Assembly (NCBI RefSeq): GCF_001522585.2
Contig: NZ_CP013373.1
Span: 62,001-126,000 of the forward strand
From: Burkholderia sp. NRF60-BP8
GTDB taxonomy: Bacteria; Pseudomonadota; Gammaproteobacteria; Burkholderiales; Burkholderiaceae
Length of the DNA stretch: 64,000 nt
Direction: 5' to 3'
Shown: positions 24,023-58,430 of the stretch, piece after piece
Numbering within the stretch: the stretch's first letter is position 1
How the letters are laid out: each line of letters begins with the position of its first letter
Translations under genes and position numbers: made by a program
The notes under the pieces: generated by a model
Told to the model about the DNA's origin: nothing
Seen by the model: only the letters and a program-made list of their open reading frames with translations
Databases searched by the model: none

Positions 24023-24301
24023 TTAACGCTTGTTGACGGCGTCCTTGAACGCCTTGCCGGCCGTGAACTTGACCGTCTTGGCTGCCGGGATCTTGATGGT
24101 TTCGCCCGTCTTCGGGTTGCGGCCCGTACGTGCTGCGCGCTTGCCCGAACCGAAGCTGCCGAAGCCGATCAGCTGAACCGCATCACCCTTCGACACGGCC
24201 TTCTTGATGACTTCGAGCAGCGTGTCCAGCGTTTCGCCGGTTTGAGCCTTGCTGGCGCCCGTTTGGGCGGCGACGGCGTCGATCAGTTCCTGTTTGTTCA
24301 T
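24023..24301 (-). CDS. hup: DNA-binding protein HU
   Basis: A 92-residue histone-like nucleoid protein starting [20 protein letters not shown]. It has the HU signature [22 protein letters not shown] and the DNA-bending arm with the conserved proline in [13 protein letters not shown]. It compacts DNA and assists DnaA at replication origins; its position about 2.4 kb from the proposed origin is notable. The ribosome site AAGGAA lies before the ATG, and a promoter with a perfect -10 box lies upstream. Which HU subunit name applies in this species cannot be told from sequence alone. Confidence 0.97.
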
Positions 24302-24689: not shown

Positions 24690-26621
24690 ATGCCCGACCG
24701 ACTTGTTTACGCCACGCTCGCACTTCGCGACGACGGCACGCTCGTCTCGCCCGAGTTCGGCGAGTTCCATCGCGGCGCATCCGGCGCGCTCGCGCACGCG
24801 CATCGCGCGTTCGTCGCGGGCAACGGGCTGCCCGCGCGCTGGCAGCGCCGTCGAACGTTCACGATCGTCACGACCCGATTCGGCGCGGGCGCCGGCTTCC
24901 TCGCAGCCTGGGCCGCGTGGCGCGACGATCCTGCGCGCTGCGAACGGCTGCATGTCGTCGCGCTAGAGCCGCACCCGTTCTCGCGCGACGACCTGCGCCG
25001 CGCGGTTTCGCATATGGTTGCAGACACAACCATATCGGCAGACGCCGATGCATTGATCGATGCATGGCCGATCCTCGTGCCGGGCCTGCACCGGCTCGAA
25101 TTCGACGAAGGGCGCGTGGTGCTCACGCTCGCGTTCGGCGATGCGATCGAGCTGTCGAAGAAGCTCGTCGCGCGCGCCGACGCGTTTTTTCTCGATGGCG
25201 CCGCGGCCTCGGCCGACGGGATCCGCGCACTCGCGAAAATCGCCGGCGAACACGCGACGTTTGCGACCCATGCAAAGTCCGACGACGTGAAACACGCGCT
25301 CGGCGAAACGGGTTTCACGTTCCGCGAAGTCGACGATCGTCTCGTCGGCGAATATGCGCCGCGCTGGCGCGCGCGCCGGCACGAGCCACCGCGTGCGCTG
25401 CCCGTTGCAGCGCGCCGTGCGATCGTGATCGGTGCGGGCCTCGCCGGCTGCGCGGTGGTCGAACGCCTGGCTGCGCGCGGCTGGGACGTCACGCTGATCG
25501 AGCGGCACGAACGGATCGCCAGCGAAGCGTCGGGCAACCCGGCCGGCGTTTTCCATCCGTTGATGACGCGCGACGACAACGTCGCGAGCCGGCTCACGCG
25601 CGGCGGCTTCCTGCACGCACTGGCACGCTGGCACGCGCTCGAACGCGCCGGGCATGCGTTCGCCCACAGCACGCACGGGATGATCCATCTGGCCGAATCG
25701 GCCGACGATTTCGCGCGGATGCGCGATGCGTTCGATGCGTTCGGCGCGCCGTCCGACTACGTGACGCTGCTCGATGCCGATGCCGCGCGTGCGCACCTGA
25801 ATCTGCCGGTCGCGCATGGCGGCCTGCTGTTTCCGCACGGCGGCGCCGTCTGGCCGGCCGGGCTGTGCGCCGCGCAATATGCGGCGGCCGGCGAGCGCGT
25901 GCGCCTGCTTGCGTCCACCTGCGTCGCGCGGCTCGACCGACGGGGCGACACCTGGCATGCGCTCGACGATACGGGCGCCACGCTGGCCGATGCGCCCGTC
26001 GTCGTGCTCGCGAACGCGGGCGACGCCGCGCGTCTTGCCGGGCTGCGGCATGTCGCGCTGCAACCGGTGCGCGGCCAGCTGACGCTGTTGCCGCCGGGCA
26101 CGACGGCGCCGCTGCCGTGTCCGGCGATCGGCGACGGTTACGCGGTCCCGCTCGCCGACGGCACGCTGCTGATCGGCGCGACGTTCGAACCCGACGACAC
26201 CGATCCCGCGATGCGTACGGCCGGCCACGTCGAGAACCTCGAACGCGTGCGACATCTGCTGCCGGGCCTGATCGGCGATCTGCCGGACCCCGCCACGCTG
26301 CGCGGGCGCGTGGCGTTCCGCTGGGTCGTCGGCGACCGCCTGCCGCTCGTCGGCCCGCTCGCCGACGAAGCGCAGGCCACCGCGAACGCCCGCGCGCTCG
26401 GCGGTGCGCAGGCGCGCGACCTGCCGCGCCTGCCCGGCCTCTACGGCGCATTCGGCTTCGGTTCGCGCGGCCTCGTGTGGGCCGCGCTCGGCGCCGAGCT
26501 GATCGCCTCGCAACTCGAAGGCGAGCCGTGGCCGCTCGAGCGCGAACTCGCCGACGCGGTCGATCCCGCCCGCTTCCTGATCCGCGCGCTGCGCGCACGC
26601 CGCGTCGGTTCGACGGGCTGA
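24690..26621 (+). CDS. mnmC: MnmC-like protein: intact FAD oxidoreductase domain, degenerate methyltransferase domain
   Basis: MnmC is a bifunctional tRNA wobble-uridine enzyme: its FAD domain turns cmnm5U34 into nm5U34 and its methyltransferase domain makes mnm5U34. The 643-residue protein aligns along its whole length. The C-terminal half is sound, with GAGLAG (248-253), SEASGNPAGVFHP and GLYGAFGFGSRGLVWAALGAEL. In the N-terminal half the SAM motif region reads TTRFGAG (61-67) where MnmC normally has an acidic or Cys-Gly GFGxG, and after DG (169-170) the conserved FAPxKNxxxW stretch is missing. Methyl transfer is therefore doubtful. The ATG at 24690 is the start; the frame is open throughout, so this is not a simple frameshift. 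Confidence 0.85.
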   Translation: MPDRLVYATLALRDDGTLVSPEFGEFHRGASGALAHAHRAFVAGNGLPARWQRRRTFTIVTTRFGAGAGFLAAWAAWRDDPARCERLHVVALEPHPFSRDDLRRAVSHMVADTTISADADALIDAWPILVPGLHRLEFDEGRVVLTLAFGDAIELSKKLVARADAFFLDGAAASADGIRALAKIAGEHATFATHAKSDDVKHALGETGFTFREVDDRLVGEYAPRWRARRHEPPRALPVAARRAIVIGAGLAGCAVVERLAARGWDVTLIERHERIASEASGNPAGVFHPLMTRDDNVASRLTRGGFLHALARWHALERAGHAFAHSTHGMIHLAESADDFARMRDAFDAFGAPSDYVTLLDADAARAHLNLPVAHGGLLFPHGGAVWPAGLCAAQYAAAGERVRLLASTCVARLDRRGDTWHALDDTGATLADAPVVVLANAGDAARLAGLRHVALQPVRGQLTLLPPGTTAPLPCPAIGDGYAVPLADGTLLIGATFEPDDTDPAMRTAGHVENLERVRHLLPGLIGDLPDPATLRGRVAFRWVVGDRLPLVGPLADEAQATANARALGGAQARDLPRLPGLYGAFGFGSRGLVWAALGAELIASQLEGEPWPLERELADAVDPARFLIRALRARRVGSTG

Positions 26622-26639
26622 TCGGCCGCGCCTTCCTCA

Positions 26640-26932
26640 CAGTTTCCCGATTTTCCGGTGCAAGGTTATCCACGCAATGCTGTGGATAACCGCGCGGAAT
26701 CCGCGCGTACTTCGTGTGTAATCACAGTGGACGTAAACTGGGCAACTCCGCACAGCTGTGAAGCGGCCCAAAAGTTGCTCAACTCAAACGTCTGTGCACG
26801 AACAGCCTGTGCAACCGGTTATGGTTTCGCCAACGCATTGATCCAACAGCGTAAACCGGAGTTATCCACAGAACTGTGCGTCCTTTGTTAACTTCTACTA
26901 CGTATATATACGAGTAAACCTTTGAAACCAAA
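26640..26932. other. oriC: Proposed replication origin (oriC) of this chromosome
   Basis: This lies in a 669-bp gene-free stretch between the MnmC-like gene and the antiporter gene. It holds DnaA boxes at 26666-26674 (TTATCCACG), 26681-26689 (perfect TTATCCACA on the minus strand) and 26862-26870 (perfect, plus strand). The last is followed by an AT-rich segment (26885-26932) with the palindrome CGTATATATACG (26901-26912), a fitting unwinding element. Coding strand switches here: genes to the left read mainly leftward and genes to the right mainly rightward. dnaA itself is not nearby. parABS lies 27-31 kb away. Bases 26933-27290 contain only weak TGTGG-type half boxes and nothing else I can name. 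Confidence 0.7.
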
Positions 26933-27247
26933 GACCTGTGGTGCCGCACAGCGCCGCGAGTCGATTCGGTCGGTTCCGGAACGAAAAAGCTGTGGCACAA
27001 TCGGTTTCCTTCGCGTTCGTTCGGCCAGGCGCCGGACATGCTTCAACGGAACGGTCGGCACGATTTCGAATCTGAATCTTCGAGTCCGCCAGTCCGTTCA
27101 CACACCAGGCCGACAATCCAGATCGGCAACCTGAACGACGTTCCACCCTGTGGCGGAACAGGCGGACCCCATGTACCGCCGTCGTCGAGCACAACAATCA
27201 CATTCGGGGCAATACCCAGCCGGCGCGTATCCATTCCTGTCGCTTGA

Positions 27248-29635
<2,388 letters not shown>

Positions 29636-29735
29636 AAAAATGTTTTGCAGATTGCGGGATCGACCGCGGCGCGATTCGCTGAATGGCGCGCGCTGCCGTG
29701 TCCGGCCGAACGCGTCGCCAGTCGTCCTGAAAATC

Positions 29736-29928
29736 TGTGGATAACCCGATATTCCACTGCAAAGTCAACGCTCTGCGGGTGGGATAACCCGGTGGATCAC
29801 CCGCGTGCGGCCGGGGGCCGATTCGAACGGGAAAATACCGGCGCACCCTGCTTCGCGGGCACGCGACATTGAGCGCACAACGAAAAATTGCGGTTATCCA
29901 GTGATTTTCCACAGTGTGCAGGGGATAA
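29736..29928. other. Second cluster of DnaA-box-like sequences
   Basis: In the 507-bp gap between the YbdK-type and MarR genes there is one perfect DnaA box (29736-29744, minus strand), a one-mismatch box TTTTCCACA (29905-29913) and weaker TTATCCAGT (29894-29902) and AGGGGATAA (29920-29928, minus strand) sites. It could belong to an extended origin, titrate DnaA or regulate the MarR gene. Outside these sites the gap 29636-30142 shows nothing else. Confidence 0.45.
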
Positions 29929-30142
29929 CTTAGCTGTGCGATTTTCCGCTCTCGCTTAGAATGTCGGCTTTGCGGATGCCGGAAACGATGCGTGTCTCTC
30001 CGGTCGCCGCGAACGCGACCGCCGCGTGTGCCTCGCGACGGCCGTGCTGACGCATTCGAGAGCGTGCGTCTGTTTTGAGACGGGATTCGATCTCCACACT
30101 ACGGCCGCTCGGCCAACCGGGCGGCGGAAAAGCGAAAAGACT

Positions 30143-30781
30143 ATGAGCGAAGGCGTTTACGGGAACCAGGCTGCGGGACGTGTGACCCACAGCTTGCTGC
30201 GGTTGAGCACGGCCATGCGGAGCGAGGCATGGGATTGGGCGGAAGGCGCTGGCCTCACGCCGACGCAGGGCGAGATTCTCGTGCTGCTGTTGCAGCGGAA
30301 GGGCCCGATGCGGCTCGGCGAGATCGCGCGCGAGACGCAGCTCACTGCGGCCACGACGAGCGATGCGGTCAGCACGCTCGAGACGAAGGGGCTCGTCGAG
30401 AAGCGCCGTGCGCTGGACGACGGCCGGGCACTGGCCGTGCGCCTGTCGGCGCGTGGCCGCACGGCCGCGAAGAAGGCACTGCAATGGCCTGAATTCCTGA
30501 CGAAAGCGGTCGGCAAGCTCGGCGCGGACGAGCAGGGCACGCTGTATCGCGCGCTGCTGAAGACGCTGCGCGAGCTGCAGGTGGCCGGCGCGACGCCGCC
30601 GCAACGCATGTGCCTCACGTGCACGCATTTCCAGCCGGGCAAGCTGTCGAAGAAGACCGTGCATCACTGCGCGGCGCTCGACATCTCGATGTCCGACAGC
30701 GATCTGCGTCTCGACTGCGCGGTGCAGGAAGAAGCCGACGCGGCGACGCAGAAGAAGACCTGGAAGATTTTCGCTGGCTGA
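30143..30781 (+). CDS. MarR-family regulator with a C-terminal cysteine/histidine tail
   Basis: A 212-residue protein. Residues about 10-145 form the MarR winged helix (LTPTQGEILVLLLQRKGPMRLGEIARE, then SDAVSTLETKGLVEKRRALDDGRALAVRLSARG). A C-terminal extension of about 60 residues holds CLTC (157-160), HHC (174-176) and RLDC (C192), a spacing suited to a zinc or iron-sulfur site; most MarR proteins lack it. The ATG at 30143 was chosen because the longer frame upstream has no MarR features. The regulated genes are unknown; the amidotransferase gene 25 bp downstream is probably co-transcribed. Confidence 0.88.
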   Translation: MSEGVYGNQAAGRVTHSLLRLSTAMRSEAWDWAEGAGLTPTQGEILVLLLQRKGPMRLGEIARETQLTAATTSDAVSTLETKGLVEKRRALDDGRALAVRLSARGRTAAKKALQWPEFLTKAVGKLGADEQGTLYRALLKTLRELQVAGATPPQRMCLTCTHFQPGKLSKKTVHHCAALDISMSDSDLRLDCAVQEEADAATQKKTWKIFAG

Positions 30782-47467: not shown

Positions 47468-47723
47468 GCAGGCCGTGCGCGTCGCCGCGCGTTGATGCGA
47501 AGCACCATCCGGCACGCCCGGGAAGGGCGTCGCGGCGGGTTCGGGCCGGCGCCGCGCGGCAGACTGGTGCCCCATTTTCGTGCGGCGATGCACCATAGGG
47601 GTAAATGCTAAGTTGTCGTGGTGCTTAAGCCTCTTTAAGATTCACCCTAGTTCTGATGCACCGCGAAACGAATTTGCAGGTGGAGAACGAGGAGACAATC
47701 GAGGCACAAAGTGCCCGGACCCC

Positions 47724-47758
47724 AAAGCGCTGTTGGACGGAATCCAACAGCGCTTTTT
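47724..47758 (+). terminator. Strong intrinsic terminator, possibly the 3' end of a small RNA
   Basis: A perfect 14-bp stem, AAAGCGCTGTTGGA (47724-47737) and TCCAACAGCGCTTT (47743-47756), with a five-base loop is followed by TTTT. It lies 257 bp past livM, further than usual for the operon, and is preceded by a small GGCAC/GTGCC hairpin (47703-47715). A short RNA ending here is possible. Confidence 0.85.
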
Positions 47759-48526
47759 CATTTGCGTGCACGGATTCCATCGATGGTGCATCGGCCTGCG
47801 TGACGGCCGTCTCTCGCGTTTGCATTCGCACCGCGTTTTTTCCGCGCTTCGCCGCGTCCCCCGTTTTCCCTTTCCGCGATCGTCCATGGACGATGCGCAG
47901 TCCTGCACAGGCGCTTCGGGCTTACCCGGTTGGCGTGCGCGAAAGGCGTCCGTTACACTCGGCTTTCGCCGACCGTGCGGTCGGGAAAATCGGTCGGCAG
48001 TTCTCCTACAAGCACAATGCAGAAGAGGGAGTACGGTTGGATGAGCAGCGCAGCGCGGTGGATCGGGGCAGGAGAGGCGGCGGGCGCCGCTCGTTCGTCA
48101 TCGGGTGCGCGACGGGTCGTCGCGGCAGTCCCGAGCCGTCCTGCGGCCTGTATGCACGCCCCGGCGATCGTTGTGCTCGCACCCGTATCCGCATCGTCAT
48201 GAGCCGCCGGCTTTCCGACGTTTCGTCGCGCGCGTACCGGGCCGCATCGGGCCGGTATGGCGGCCGTTTCCGCCATCGTTGCGCACGCACCGATTTTCCG
48301 CGCGATCCCCCCTTTATTCGCCTTCTTCATCCTGACGACATTGCTGCTGCGCATCGTGATGGCCGAATGACCGTTTCGGCCGGCATGCGGCGCATGGGCG
48401 CGGCGTCACGGGAAAACGAGCATGGGCGCGGGTGGATCGGATAATTAAGATATTAACTGTTTCTGGGGACCGGGAGCCGCCCGAGCGACCCGTGGTTTTT
48501 TCGAGCAGCGTTTGGAGACAACGTAA
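47759..48526. other. Intergenic stretch with no supported gene
   Basis: Several overlapping open frames exist on both strands, but none has a recognisable domain, a good ribosome site or a credible composition. An AT-rich patch at about 48440-48460 (ATAATTAAGATATTAACT) is a likely promoter region for the following binding-protein gene. Confidence 0.5.
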
Positions 48527-53511: not shown

Positions 53512-53542
53512 CGGCGTGTTTCACGTGAAACACGCCGTTTTT
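53512..53542. promoter_or_regulatory. parS: parS centromere site inside a 26-bp perfect palindrome with T-tail
   Basis: TGTTTCACGTGAAACA (53517-53532) matches the universal chromosomal ParB-binding consensus exactly. It is extended by CGGCG/CGCCG on each side into a perfect palindrome (53512-53537), followed by TTTTT (53538-53542). It is thus also a plausible rho-independent terminator for the cluster 2 operon. parB is encoded 4 kb downstream. Confidence 0.93.
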
Positions 53543-54020
53543 GTTTGGCGAGATCGCAAGGTGTCGAAGTATCGCCGGTTCGGGACCGGGGATAAGTCGC
53601 GCAGGAATAGTCGGAGGCGCTGTGCGACGCCGCACAGGCTTGTTCCACAGGTCGCCGATGCGTTGGGCTTCAGTGGACAAGTCTCCGGACAACCATCGGA
53701 AACGCTGTGTGGAGGAGGGCACAGGGCGTCGCGGCCGGTGGATTGCGGGGGGGCACAGACATCGGTCGGGTCAGCGGTTCCGCGCATGCTGGCGTGGTGA
53801 TTAACCGGGTTTGGCACAGGCACGATGACGTGCGTTTAACCGGTTGGGAGCACCGCCGAAGCCGCCCGGCACGCCAAATTCGCCCGCCCACAGCAAAAAA
53901 TCGCCGAAATGCACAGACCCTACCATTCGGACGGCCTTCGGGCGAAAAGCGAACCCGCTATAATTCGGCCCATACATTTCTCAGATAGGTTCGTGCGCTG
54001 CTCTGCGTACGGAATCCACC
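53543..54020. other. Gap between parS and mnmG
   Basis: No gene is supported. The stretch has several TGTG/CACA half-sites but no intact DnaA box, and an AT-rich CGCTATAATTCGG element (53946-53958) containing a perfect TATAAT at 53949-53954, a likely -10 box for mnmG about 66 bp upstream of its start. Confidence 0.5.
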
Positions 54021-55991
54021 ATGCTTTTTCCCACAGAATTTGACGTCATCGTCGTCGGTGGCGGTCATGCCGGCACGGAAGCCGCGCTGGCGTCCGCCCG
54101 TATGGGCGCAAAGACACTGCTGCTGACCCACAACATCGAAACGCTTGGGCAGATGAGCTGCAATCCGTCGATCGGCGGCATTGGCAAGGGCCATCTGGTC
54201 AAGGAAGTCGACGCGTTGGGCGGCGCAATGGCCGCCGCGACGGATGAAAGCGGTATTCAGTTCCGGATCCTCAATTCGTCGAAGGGCCCGGCCGTGCGCG
54301 CGACACGTGCGCAGGCCGATCGTATCCTGTACAAGGCCGCGATCCGTCACCGGCTCGAAAATCAGCCGAACCTGTGGCTGTTCCAGCAGGCCGTCGACGA
54401 CCTGATGGTCGAAGGCGACCGCGTGGTGGGCGCCGTCACGCAGATCGGCATCCGCTTCCGCGCTCGCGCAGTCGTGCTGACGGCCGGTACGTTCCTCGAC
54501 GGCAAGATTCACGTCGGCCTGAACAACTACACGGGCGGCCGCGCGGGCGATCCGGCGGCCGTGTCGCTGTCGTCGCGCCTGAAGGAGCTGAAGCTGCCGC
54601 AGGGCCGGCTGAAGACCGGTACGCCGCCGCGTATCGACGGTCGCACGATCGACTTTTCGAAGCTCGACGAGCAGCCGGGCGACCTCGATCCGATCCCCGT
54701 ATTCTCGTTCCTGGGCCGCGCGGAGCAGCATCCGCAACAGCTGCCGTGCTGGGTGACGCATACGAACGAACGCACGCACGACATCATTCGCGGCGGTCTC
54801 GATCGTTCGCCCATGTATACAGGCGTGATCGAAGGGGTCGGGCCGCGCTATTGCCCGTCGATCGAGGACAAGATCCACCGGTTCGCGTCGAAGGAATCGC
54901 ACCAGATCTTTCTCGAGCCGGAAGGGCTGACGACCAACGAGTTCTACCCCAACGGGATCTCGACCAGCCTGCCGTTCGACGTCCAGCTCGAGCTCGTGCA
55001 TTCGATGCGCGGCCTCGAGAACGCGCATATCCTGCGCCCCGGTTACGCGATCGAATACGACTATTTCGACCCGCGCGCGCTGAAGGCGTCACTCGAGACG
55101 AAGGCGATCAATGGGCTATTCTTTGCGGGCCAGATCAACGGTACGACCGGCTACGAGGAAGCGGCAGCACAGGGGCTGCTGGCCGGCCTCAATGCGGGCC
55201 GCTACGTGCAGGAAAAGGACGCGTGGTGCCCGCGTCGCGATCAAGCCTATCTGGGCGTGCTGGTGGACGATCTCGTCACGCGCGGCGTGGCCGAGCCGTA
55301 CCGGATGTTCACGAGCCGGGCCGAGTATCGTCTGAGCCTGCGCGAAGACAACGCCGACATGCGCCTGACCGAGATCGGCCGCGAGCTTGGACTGGTCGAC
55401 GACGCCCGCTGGGATGCCTTCAGCCGGAAGCGCGACGCTGTTTCACGTGAAACCGAACGCCTGAAGTCGACGTGGGTGACGCCGAAGACGCTGCCCGCGG
55501 AAGAGGCGACCGCGCTGCTCGGCAAGGCGATCGATCACGAATACAGCCTCGCCGAGCTGCTGCGCCGCCCGGGCGTTGGCTACGACGGCGTGTGCGGGCT
55601 GAAGGGCGGCGAGTGCGGCCCTGCGGAGCCGTTGACCGACGATCCGGTGCTGCTCGAGCAGATCAAGGAGCAGGTCGAAATCGGTATCAAGTATCAGGGC
55701 TATATCGAGCGCCAGGCATCCGAGATCGAGCGCAACGACGCGAACGAGAACACGCGCCTGCCGGACGGTATCGATTACCGCGACGTTCGAGGCCTGTCGT
55801 TCGAGGTAAGCCAGAAGCTCAACGAGTTCCGTCCGGAAACGATCGGGCAGGCGTCGCGCATTTCCGGCGTCACGCCGGCGGCAATCTCGCTGCTGATGGT
55901 GCATCTGAAGCGTCGCGGCCTGGGCCGCCGTAACGGCACGGTCGCGGAAGCCGCGGAGCAGGGGGGCGGCAGCGTCCCGACGCAACAATGA
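54021..55991 (+). CDS. mnmG: tRNA uridine-5-carboxymethylaminomethyl modification enzyme MnmG (GidA)
   Basis: A 656-residue FAD protein that with MnmE makes cmnm5U34 in tRNAs reading two-codon boxes. FAD binding is [21 protein letters not shown] (near residues 7-27); GidA motifs [34 protein letters not shown] and [23 protein letters not shown] are intact, as is the C-terminal helical domain that binds MnmE and tRNA. It heads the mnmG-rsmG-parA-parB block next to the origin region. A parS site lies within it at 55439-55454. Confidence 0.97.
55439..55454. promoter_or_regulatory. parS: Second parS site, inside mnmG
   Basis: TGTTTCACGTGAAACC matches the parS consensus at 15 of 16 positions and keeps the full palindromic core GTTTCACGTGAAAC (55440-55453). 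It codes for the residues around AVSRETER of MnmG, so the site is carried in coding sequence. It lies 1.9 kb from the first parS. Confidence 0.9.
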
Positions 55992-56725: not shown

Positions 56726-57505
56726 ATGGCAAAGATCTTCTGCGTTGCGAACCAGAAGGGGGGCGTCGGCAAGACGACGACATCGGTCAATCTCGCCGCA
56801 AGCCTTGCAGCGCAGGAGCAACGAGTCCTGTTGATCGATCTCGACCCGCAGGGCAACGCGACGATGGGCAGCGGGATCGACAAGGCCGCCTGCGAAGCGA
56901 CCGTGTACGAAGTGCTGGTCGACGGCGTGTCGGTGGCCGACGCACGTGTGCGTCCGGAGGGCGTCACTTACGACGTGCTTCCCGCGAACCGCGAGCTGTC
57001 CGGCGCCGAGATCGAGCTGATCAGCATCGACAACCGCGAGCGCCGCCTGAAGGCCGCGCTCGAGCGCGTGGCCGACGACTACGATTTCGTGCTGATCGAT
57101 TGCCCGCCGACGCTGTCGCTGCTGACGCTGAACGGGCTGTGCGCGGCGCATGGCGTCGTGATCCCGATGCAGTGCGAGTACTTCGCACTGGAAGGGCTGT
57201 CGGACCTCGTCAACACGATCAAGCAGGTTCACGCGAACATGAACCGCGACCTGAAGATCATCGGCTTGCTGCGCGTGATGTTCGATCCGCGCATCACACT
57301 GCAGCAGCAAGTCTCCGATCAACTGAAGGCGCACTTCGGCGACAAGGTGTTCGACGCGGTGATTCCGCGCAACGTGCGCCTGGCCGAAGCGCCGAGCTAC
57401 GGGTTGCCGGGCGTCGTGTTCGACCGCAGTTCGCGCGGCGCGCAGGCGTATATCCAGTTCGGTGCCGAGATGATCGAGCGCGTGCGCGCGTTCGAGGTGT
57501 CGTGA
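56726..57505 (+). CDS. parA: Chromosome partitioning ATPase ParA
   Basis: A 259-residue Walker-type ATPase of the chromosomal (small, no DNA-binding N-domain) ParA class. It has the deviant Walker A KGGVGKTTT (11-19), Walker A' LLIDLDPQGNATMGSG, and Walker B FVLIDCPPTLSLLT. With ParB and parS it moves newly copied origins apart. I chose the ATG at 56726 with AAAGGGAA upstream. It follows rsmG by 51 bp in the same direction. Confidence 0.97.
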   Translation: MAKIFCVANQKGGVGKTTTSVNLAASLAAQEQRVLLIDLDPQGNATMGSGIDKAACEATVYEVLVDGVSVADARVRPEGVTYDVLPANRELSGAEIELISIDNRERRLKAALERVADDYDFVLIDCPPTLSLLTLNGLCAAHGVVIPMQCEYFALEGLSDLVNTIKQVHANMNRDLKIIGLLRVMFDPRITLQQQVSDQLKAHFGDKVFDAVIPRNVRLAEAPSYGLPGVVFDRSSRGAQAYIQFGAEMIERVRAFEVS

Positions 57506-57536
57506 TCCGGACATGAGCGAAGCGAGGAAGAAAGAC

Positions 57537-58430
57537 ATGAACGCGGTACCAAAGAAGAAGGGCTTGGGACGTGGCCTCGAAGCGCTGCTCGGCGGCAGTG
57601 CCGATATCACCGAAGCGGTGAAGATCGAAGGGGCGCCGAACACGCTCGCGCTCGGCAAGCTGCAAGCCGGCAAGTACCAGCCGCGCACGCGGATGGACGA
57701 GGGCAGCCTGCAGGAGCTCGCGGCAAGCATTCGCGCGCAGGGCGTGATGCAGCCGATCCTGGTACGGCCTATTTCGTCAGACAAATACGAGATCATCGCG
57801 GGCGAGCGGCGTTTCCGTGCCGCACGTCTGGCCGGCCTCGAGGAAGTGCCGGTGCTCGTGAAGGACGTATCCGATCAGGCTGCCGCCGCGATGGCGCTGA
57901 TCGAGAACATCCAGCGCGAGGACCTGAATCCGCTTGAAGAGGCGCACGGTATTCAGCGCCTGCTCGACGAGTTCGGTTTCACGCACGAACAGGCTGCCGA
58001 ATCGGTCGGCCGTTCGCGCAGTGCGGTGTCGAACCTGCTGCGCCTGCTGAACCTCGCGTCGCCGGTGCAGACGATGCTGCTGGCCGGCGATCTCGACATG
58101 GGACACGCACGCGCACTGCTCGCCGTCGATGCGGCCACGCAGATCACGCTCGCGCATCAGGTGGTCAACAAGCGCATGTCGGTGCGCGAGACCGAGAAGC
58201 TCGTCGCGCACACGACGAAGGAAGCGCCGGCCGTGAAGGCGCGTGCGAAGGACGACGGCGGCCGCGATACGCGTCGCCTCGAAGAGGAGTTGTCCGATCT
58301 GCTCGCGTCGACGGTGAAGATCAAGCTCGGCCGCCGCGGGCGAGGGCAGGTGCTGATCGACTTCGGCAACCTCGATGCGCTCGAAGGCATTCTCGCGCGA
58401 CTGCGCGGCAACGTCGCGACCGAAGAGTAA
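57537..58430 (+). CDS. parB: Chromosome partitioning protein ParB
   Basis: A 297-residue ParB CTPase. The N-terminal ParA-stimulating motif is GLGRGLEALLGG (9-20). The CTP-binding ParB/Srx domain includes GKYQPRTRMDEGSLQELAASIRAQGVMQPILVRP and GERRFRAARLAG. The helix-turn-helix FTHEQAAESVGRSRSAVSNLLRLLNL binds parS, and the C-terminus dimerises. I chose the ATG at 57537 (AGGAAG upstream); an ATG at 57513 adds eight residues. Two parS sites lie 2-4 kb upstream. Confidence 0.97.
   Translation: MNAVPKKKGLGRGLEALLGGSADITEAVKIEGAPNTLALGKLQAGKYQPRTRMDEGSLQELAASIRAQGVMQPILVRPISSDKYEIIAGERRFRAARLAGLEEVPVLVKDVSDQAAAAMALIENIQREDLNPLEEAHGIQRLLDEFGFTHEQAAESVGRSRSAVSNLLRLLNLASPVQTMLLAGDLDMGHARALLAVDAATQITLAHQVVNKRMSVRETEKLVAHTTKEAPAVKARAKDDGGRDTRRLEEELSDLLASTVKIKLGRRGRGQVLIDFGNLDALEGILARLRGNVATEE

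Follow-up and report, generated by a model that had tools for sequence, protein, structure and literature searches.

The window, by which we mean the whole 64,000-nucleotide stretch of DNA that was analysed, spans C2:62001-126000, C2 being a contig of 3,427,375 bp in a 7.08-Mb genome of three contigs. According to gene calls and family matches, an intergenic gap (26622..27290) separates mnmC (24690..26621, +; NF002480, over the cut-off) from a gene for a CPA2-type cation:proton antiporter (27291..28505, +), which is a weak family match to TIGR00932 (41 bits, under the cut-off) and has relatives with 100% identity in Burkholderia sp. MS389 and B. cenocepacia NCTC13227. On the left lies a gene for a HU-family protein (24023..24301, -; best match HU-beta, under the curated cut-off), and on the right follow genes for a YbdK-family carboxylate-amine ligase (28520..29635, +; NF010040, over the cut-off) and a MarR-like regulator (30215..30781, +; weak matches alone), then a perfect parS (53517..53532), mnmG (gidA; 54102..55991, +; TIGR00136, over the cut-off), parA (56726..57505, +), whose ParA-type matches are under the cut-off and which adjoins parB, and parB itself (57513..58430, +; TIGR00180, over the cut-off). 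A preliminary description of this DNA had placed HU to one side of the gap and parABS to the other, and both are found there. It had also read a switch in coding direction: a simple gene caller gives 21 leftward genes out of 28 on the left and 29 rightward genes out of 35 on the right (Fisher p = 7e-6). The switch is not located at the gap, whose two bordering genes both read right, and is thus a regional one. Elsewhere in the window, the Burkholderia sRNA ncS01 was recognised at 47649-47759 (Rfam RF02865); together with the antiporter relatives, it assigns the window to Burkholderia. A dense group of CACAG/CTGTG sites (9 in 350 bp, 53620-53970) lies upstream of mnmG, near the perfect parS.

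Within the gap we delimited a module, B, which we propose as oriC (26640..26936, +; B profile match at C2:88650-88936 with 272 bits, and an alignment of 80 rows) and which reads from an R4-like box pair to an AT-rich element. The pair is inverted and consists of a one-mismatch DnaA box, TTATCCACG (26666..26674, +), and an exact box, TTATCCACA (26681..26689, -), and a second exact TTATCCACA box, R1-like, lies at 26862..26870 (+); these are the three strong boxes, two of them perfect, of the preliminary description. An IHF-like site with one mismatch (26831..26843, -) has GATCAA at +27 from R1. A DnaA-trio-like stretch, TTGTTAACTTCTACTAC (26885..26901, +), is followed by CGTATATATACG (26901..26912), the palindrome noticed earlier in the AT-rich segment and part of a putative unwinding element. 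The pattern TTATNCACA has three matches in the window versus 0.2 expected, with at least three in 0 of 100 shuffles, its third match (29736) lying outside the gap; TTGTTAACTTCTACTAC with up to three mismatches has one match in the window versus 0.04 expected, and CGTATATATACG occurs twice in the 417 kb that was read continuously. The best 60 bp outside R1 have an AT fraction of 0.65, matched by 0.15% of the 60-bp windows in the 417 kb, and at the 300-bp scale the AT richness is less unusual (2.3% of windows). Density of DnaA boxes does not rank the gap first (3 boxes with up to one mismatch per 300 bp versus 4 at C2:22589 and C2:24762). The DnaA-trio label for the TTGTTAACTTCTACTAC stretch is weak: the available text of PMC7561715 defines the trio by the unit 3'-[G/A]A[T/A], which follows a GC cluster and recurs more than three times, and by eye only three consecutive triplets of module B fit this pattern.

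The arrangement of these parts resembles that of E. coli K-12 oriC (NC_000913.3, L195), where TGTGGATAA and TTATCCACA are 180 bp apart from start to start, the corresponding distance in module B being 181 bp in the same reading direction. The two share the relative orientation of the R1 and R4 boxes, a GATCAA (IHF) at +27 from R1, with R1 between it and the unwinding element, and an AT-rich element outside R1. They differ in the sequence of the unwinding element and in gene context (mnmC-antiporter for B, mnmG-mioC for E. coli), and B, unlike E. coli oriC, has a mirror copy 2.8 kb off and a distal copy. B contains one GATC site versus 11 in the annotated E. coli oriC, the E. coli R4 beginning 6 bp past the annotation. 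Of the features that mark an E. coli-type oriC, opposed R1 and R4 boxes ~180 bp apart, a predicted IHF-like site and an AT-rich element outside R1 are found, and the GATC clusters of Dam/SeqA control are absent from B. To our knowledge, such clusters are not required of bacterial origins in general. As far as its sequence tells, the gap is E. coli-like in layout and not in SeqA control.

To follow module B through relatives, we used an alignment in which the window is joined by 79 named loci (80 rows); one locus without an exact forward box (L060) was dropped. Both exact boxes are present in 76 of the 80 named loci, R1 and R4 are 180 or 181 bp apart in 77 of the 80 rows, an IHF-like site predicted from sequence with up to one mismatch lies close to R1 in 69 rows, and TTGTTAACTTCTACTAC with up to two substitutions is found in the corresponding slot of all 80 named loci. 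Of 299 family genomes, BLASTN recognises the gap in 174. A model of the R1 box and opening element (model R1; 82 positions, from 20 B rows, one row of module A and three of module B-prime, both introduced below), whose underlying alignment A1 leaves out its last row, a misplaced second module of L066, matches 256 of the 299 genomes, its filters losing some weak matches. Over the whole 7.08-Mb genome at E 0.01, this model finds B as the best match (78 bits) and A as the sole other one (55 bits). We also tried TTATCCACA-N(6-24)-TTGTTAA as a tracer of origins beyond the family and rejected it as too narrow (18 of 399 genomes of the order), the 18 genomes comprising 4 inside the family and 14 outside it, in which the intervening sequence is different.

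Module B-prime (29734..29942, -; B profile match at C2:91942-91734, E 1.1e-6, model 7-226) lies 2.8 kb to the right of B, beyond the ligase gene, and is inverted with respect to B. It keeps the box pair and the R1-like box, has lost the AT-rich element in this genome and, being without the opening element, is missed by model R1. Among the 80 named loci, a B-profile match with the expected strand and a distance of 1.9-3.5 kb to the antiporter start is present in all 80 at a loose E of 10, and a match of at least 18 bits in the B-prime position is present in 66. The opening-element motif (up to two substitutions) occupies the B slot in 30 of 30 Burkholderia-type loci and 50 of 50 Paraburkholderia and related loci, and the B-prime slot in 1 of 30 versus 40 of 50. 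In genus g11, all five genomes examined (G168, G154, G072, G174, G140) have their sole strong module between the ligase and MarR genes, that is, in the B-prime slot, and the B slot of the one g11 genome checked contained no DnaA box with up to one mismatch; two further g11 genomes (G010, G048) have two R1 model matches each. Modules occupy both slots in G051 (g13), G171 (g20), G044 and G097 (g25), G250 (g10) and the Burkholderia genome G083, and G015 (g15) has two modules in tandem in the B slot. Judging from g11, with its strong module in the B-prime slot, the predicted origin slot is not fixed. B-prime is best explained as the remnant of a mirror-image twin of B and may still bind DnaA, and differential keeping of the twin copies appears to be the simplest reading of the genomes compared.

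Module A, with an AT-rich element of its own, lies outside the window at C2:24774-25029, 64 kb to the left of B and ~160 bp from tRNA-Val, inverted with respect to B (B profile, 77 bits). It keeps the box pair, the R1-like box, the TTGTTAAC stretch and CGTATATATACG, with a mismatch in R1 and without GATCAA. We compared 23 A rows (own genome, G162, G217 and 20 chosen from BLASTN matches): a box, TTGTTAACTATCACTACG and then TGTTAACAC are nearly invariant, all 23 chosen rows match the origin profile, and mean majority conservation is 0.92 in A versus 0.70 in the 390 bp past its AT-rich end, the flank on the tRNA side not being averaged. BLASTN with A matches 40 of 41 genus genomes (not G083), the weak match being another module in at least G134 and G187, and model R1 gives two to four matches in each of the 41 sampled genus genomes, own included. 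Among 34 genomes of ten genera, picked for few contigs, 31 have at least two R1 matches and three, all g11, have one. In G277, an A-like module lies 160 kb away on the opposite side of B, and the flagellar genes, which are left of B here, are also on that side, suggesting an inversion around the origin. The most likely role of A would be that of an auxiliary DnaA-binding site affecting initiation timing, auxiliary binding being ranked first and firing second.

Other groups of boxes and modules were encountered along the way. About 2 kb from A, at C2:22550-23020 (L003:2550-3020), lies a DnaA-box array of a different kind, in which by eye several ATATCCACA/TTATCCACA boxes alternate with a repeated ATGCACAG-GTTTC unit; it is possibly a DnaA-binding reservoir. 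This unit contains CTGTGCA, a 7-mer known from J2315 origins and present here 4 times within 500 bp. Two exact DnaA boxes in opposite orientation (C2:134766 and C2:135503) lie 9-10 kb to the right of the window and give very weak partial profile matches. G083 (L232, L233) has two more A-like modules (C1:269907 and C1:21452) beside B and B-prime. In the g24/g3 genomes G067, G145 and G231 (L224-L230), which have weak R1 matches, one module is close to HU, with others 32-185 kb off, an arrangement that resembles the two box clusters of C. metallidurans; in the stretch retrieved from these three genomes, neither the antiporter gene nor the ligase gene was found.

GC skew was read continuously over 417,375 bp, from C2:3256001 across the contig joint to C2:246000, with 20-kb samples elsewhere. 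In the ~21% of C2 covered in this way, the cumulative minimum is at C2:91066 (window 29066), 2.1 kb from B; the preliminary description had named a minimum located elsewhere as an argument against an origin here, and the replicon sample places it close to the gap. The skew continues downward over the contig joint and is not minimal at dnaA, mnmG or parAB. It is positive in all seven samples from 0.4-1.62 Mb and negative in all eight from 1.8-3.22 Mb, and this sign change implies an opposite switch at ~1.62-1.80 Mb; on a circle of 3.43 Mb, the point facing 89 kb is close to this interval. An E. coli-like dif pattern with up to three mismatches had no match, and the first places listed for KOPS polarity are all on C1. 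In six other genomes, read near the module only (G168, G099, G250, G120, G217, G162), the minimum is 1.3-6.3 kb from the best module, which in G168 occupies the B-prime slot; in all seven genomes tested the distance is below 7 kb. A residual bootstrap, whose two-slope model assumes one origin, placed the minimum 10 kb or less from the module in 87-96% of replicates across these seven genomes. In the own genome, G217, G162 and G250, B lies on one side of the minimum and B-prime on the other, and the bootstrap is too wide to separate the two modules.

The sole DnaA match of the genome (C2:3426366-3426848) is near the contig end, and the preliminary description's view that this origin is uncoupled from dnaA agrees with a distance of ~90 kb to the left of the gap if C2 is circular. 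The origin match and the strongest DnaA match are on one contig in all 19 Burkholderia genomes compared, ~63-111 kb apart on the same strand in 17 of them (own ~90 kb, circle assumed), and 236 kb and 585 kb apart on opposite strands in G110 and G293. Uncoupling of origin and dnaA is already known in the family and not new. On chromosome 1 of Cupriavidus metallidurans CH34, the available text of PMC2864759 places the skew transition ~90 kb from dnaA-dnaN-gyrB and next to a 213-nt stretch that has 3 perfect DnaA boxes; four further boxes, each with one mismatch, lie 130 kb away. CH34 is like B in its skew transition ~90 kb from dnaA and beside DnaA boxes; that text does not present its box clusters as repeats of a single module. 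For B. cenocepacia J2315, the locus numbers given in the consulted portion of PMC7364216 (dnaA, BCAL0423; GidA, BCAL0024) imply a large distance to dnaA. Marker frequency in 10-kb bins has indicated bidirectional replication from a predicted origin region in this strain, and the same source, in the part available, mentions two DnaA-box clusters, reports a box cluster close to both nucleotide 1 and the GC-skew minimum of c1, and leaves the exact position of the origin unsettled (PMC4948915). In our gene calls, the MarR-like gene is third and gidA 25th to the right of the gap, an order close to that of J2315 as far as the excerpts give it (BCAL0003, MarR regulator; BCAL0024, GidA; PMC4948915, PMC7364216), so J2315 nucleotide 1 is very probably the counterpart of the gap. 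Repeated modules, as found here, are not described for J2315 c1 in those excerpts (PMC4948915, PMC7364216), and we found no description of repeated origin modules in the open-licence literature searched, a search with the supplements of PMC4948915 outside its scope and no proof of novelty. According to the accessible part of PMC12914326, DnaA of B. pseudomallei binds an amplicon that carries two exact boxes in opposite orientation and is located at the skew switch of chromosome 1 or close to it. The bipartite origins of Bacillus subtilis, Helicobacter pylori and Clostridioides difficile, as outlined in the portion of PMC7561715 used here, usually have dnaA between two regions, one of which contains the unwinding element. 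B and B-prime are likewise two DnaA-box regions around genes, but these genes are the antiporter and the ligase, and in many relatives both modules have an unwinding element; box clusters flanking dnaA, as in the B. subtilis type, were not found, dnaA being ~90 kb away.

Where else replication might begin has to be weighed against these data. The neighbourhoods of dnaA and of mnmG/parAB are common origin places in other bacteria, and here one exact box lies near dnaA (C2:3425588) and the CACAG cluster upstream of mnmG. However, the cumulative skew drops by ~860 more from the contig end at dnaA to 91 kb and is rising at mnmG, and both places lack a match to the B profile (E 10) and to model R1 (E 0.01); we regard a true origin adjoining dnaA or mnmG/parAB as extremely improbable. 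Module A beside tRNA-Val (C2:24.8 kb) is another place to consider, keeping the origin parts, matching the profile in each of the 23 chosen rows and being conserved above its flank, with a higher box density around it than around B (4 versus 3 within 300 bp). If it were the main origin, B would be a DnaA-binding regulatory site; yet the skew minimum is nearer to B in all four genomes in which both are covered, 0-0.4% of bootstrap replicates put it 10 kb or less from A, and the mismatched R1, the missing GATCAA and the lower score with model R1 (55 versus 78 bits) also argue against A, so that we regard this assignment as highly improbable.

A and B might instead both fire, as two active origins 64 kb apart with B dominant. 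In the own genome, G217, G162 and G120 (sign turned for the last), the skew slope between A and B (G minus C per kb: -5.6, -6.6, -7.2 and -10.1) is shallower than that beyond A (-16.2, -40.3, -19.5 and -18.3, the G217 value covering 27 kb only), as occasional firing of A would leave, and the AT-rich element of A is conserved. Three of these four genomes, however, belong to one genus with shared gene order, and gene content could cause the slope; the minimum remains near B in all four, and the marker frequency of J2315, in 10-kb bins, is described in the available part of PMC4948915 as starting from one predicted origin region. We consider joint firing of A and B unlikely.

The candidate chromosomal origin of the preliminary description is supported by the skew minimum, the E. 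coli geometry, the conservation and the literature on relatives, but it is not the sole origin-like module. Very probably, the gap is the start of main-chromosome replication, with an E. coli-like build and at ~90 kb from the initiator gene, and we think it very likely that B (26640-26936) is the functional oriC of the main chromosome, working like E. coli oriC. Starting from the sequence features, conservation and nearby skew minimum that we observed for B, we infer binding, bending, opening and firing as follows. DnaA would bind the R1-like box (26862) and the R4-like inverted pair (26666/26681), and IHF or HU would bend the DNA between them; DnaA would then spread from R1 across the trio-like stretch into the TATATATA element, which would open and allow the helicase to load in both directions.

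These results show the R1-IHF-R4 layout of E. coli in a betaproteobacterial family and provide a precise candidate sequence for the origin, which the J2315 study had left unresolved. We regard as rather doubtful the wider proposal that the main chromosome in Burkholderia and its family carries several initiation-competent E. coli-type modules, namely two mirror-image twins that face one another across two genes and of which different genera keep different members, and a third, conserved module 40-240 kb away that fires in some cells; if it is true, evolution could shift the working origin from one slot to another. Being repeated and conserved, the modules open a general question to existing methods: can spare origins persist on a bacterial chromosome, and by what route does an origin come to lie elsewhere?
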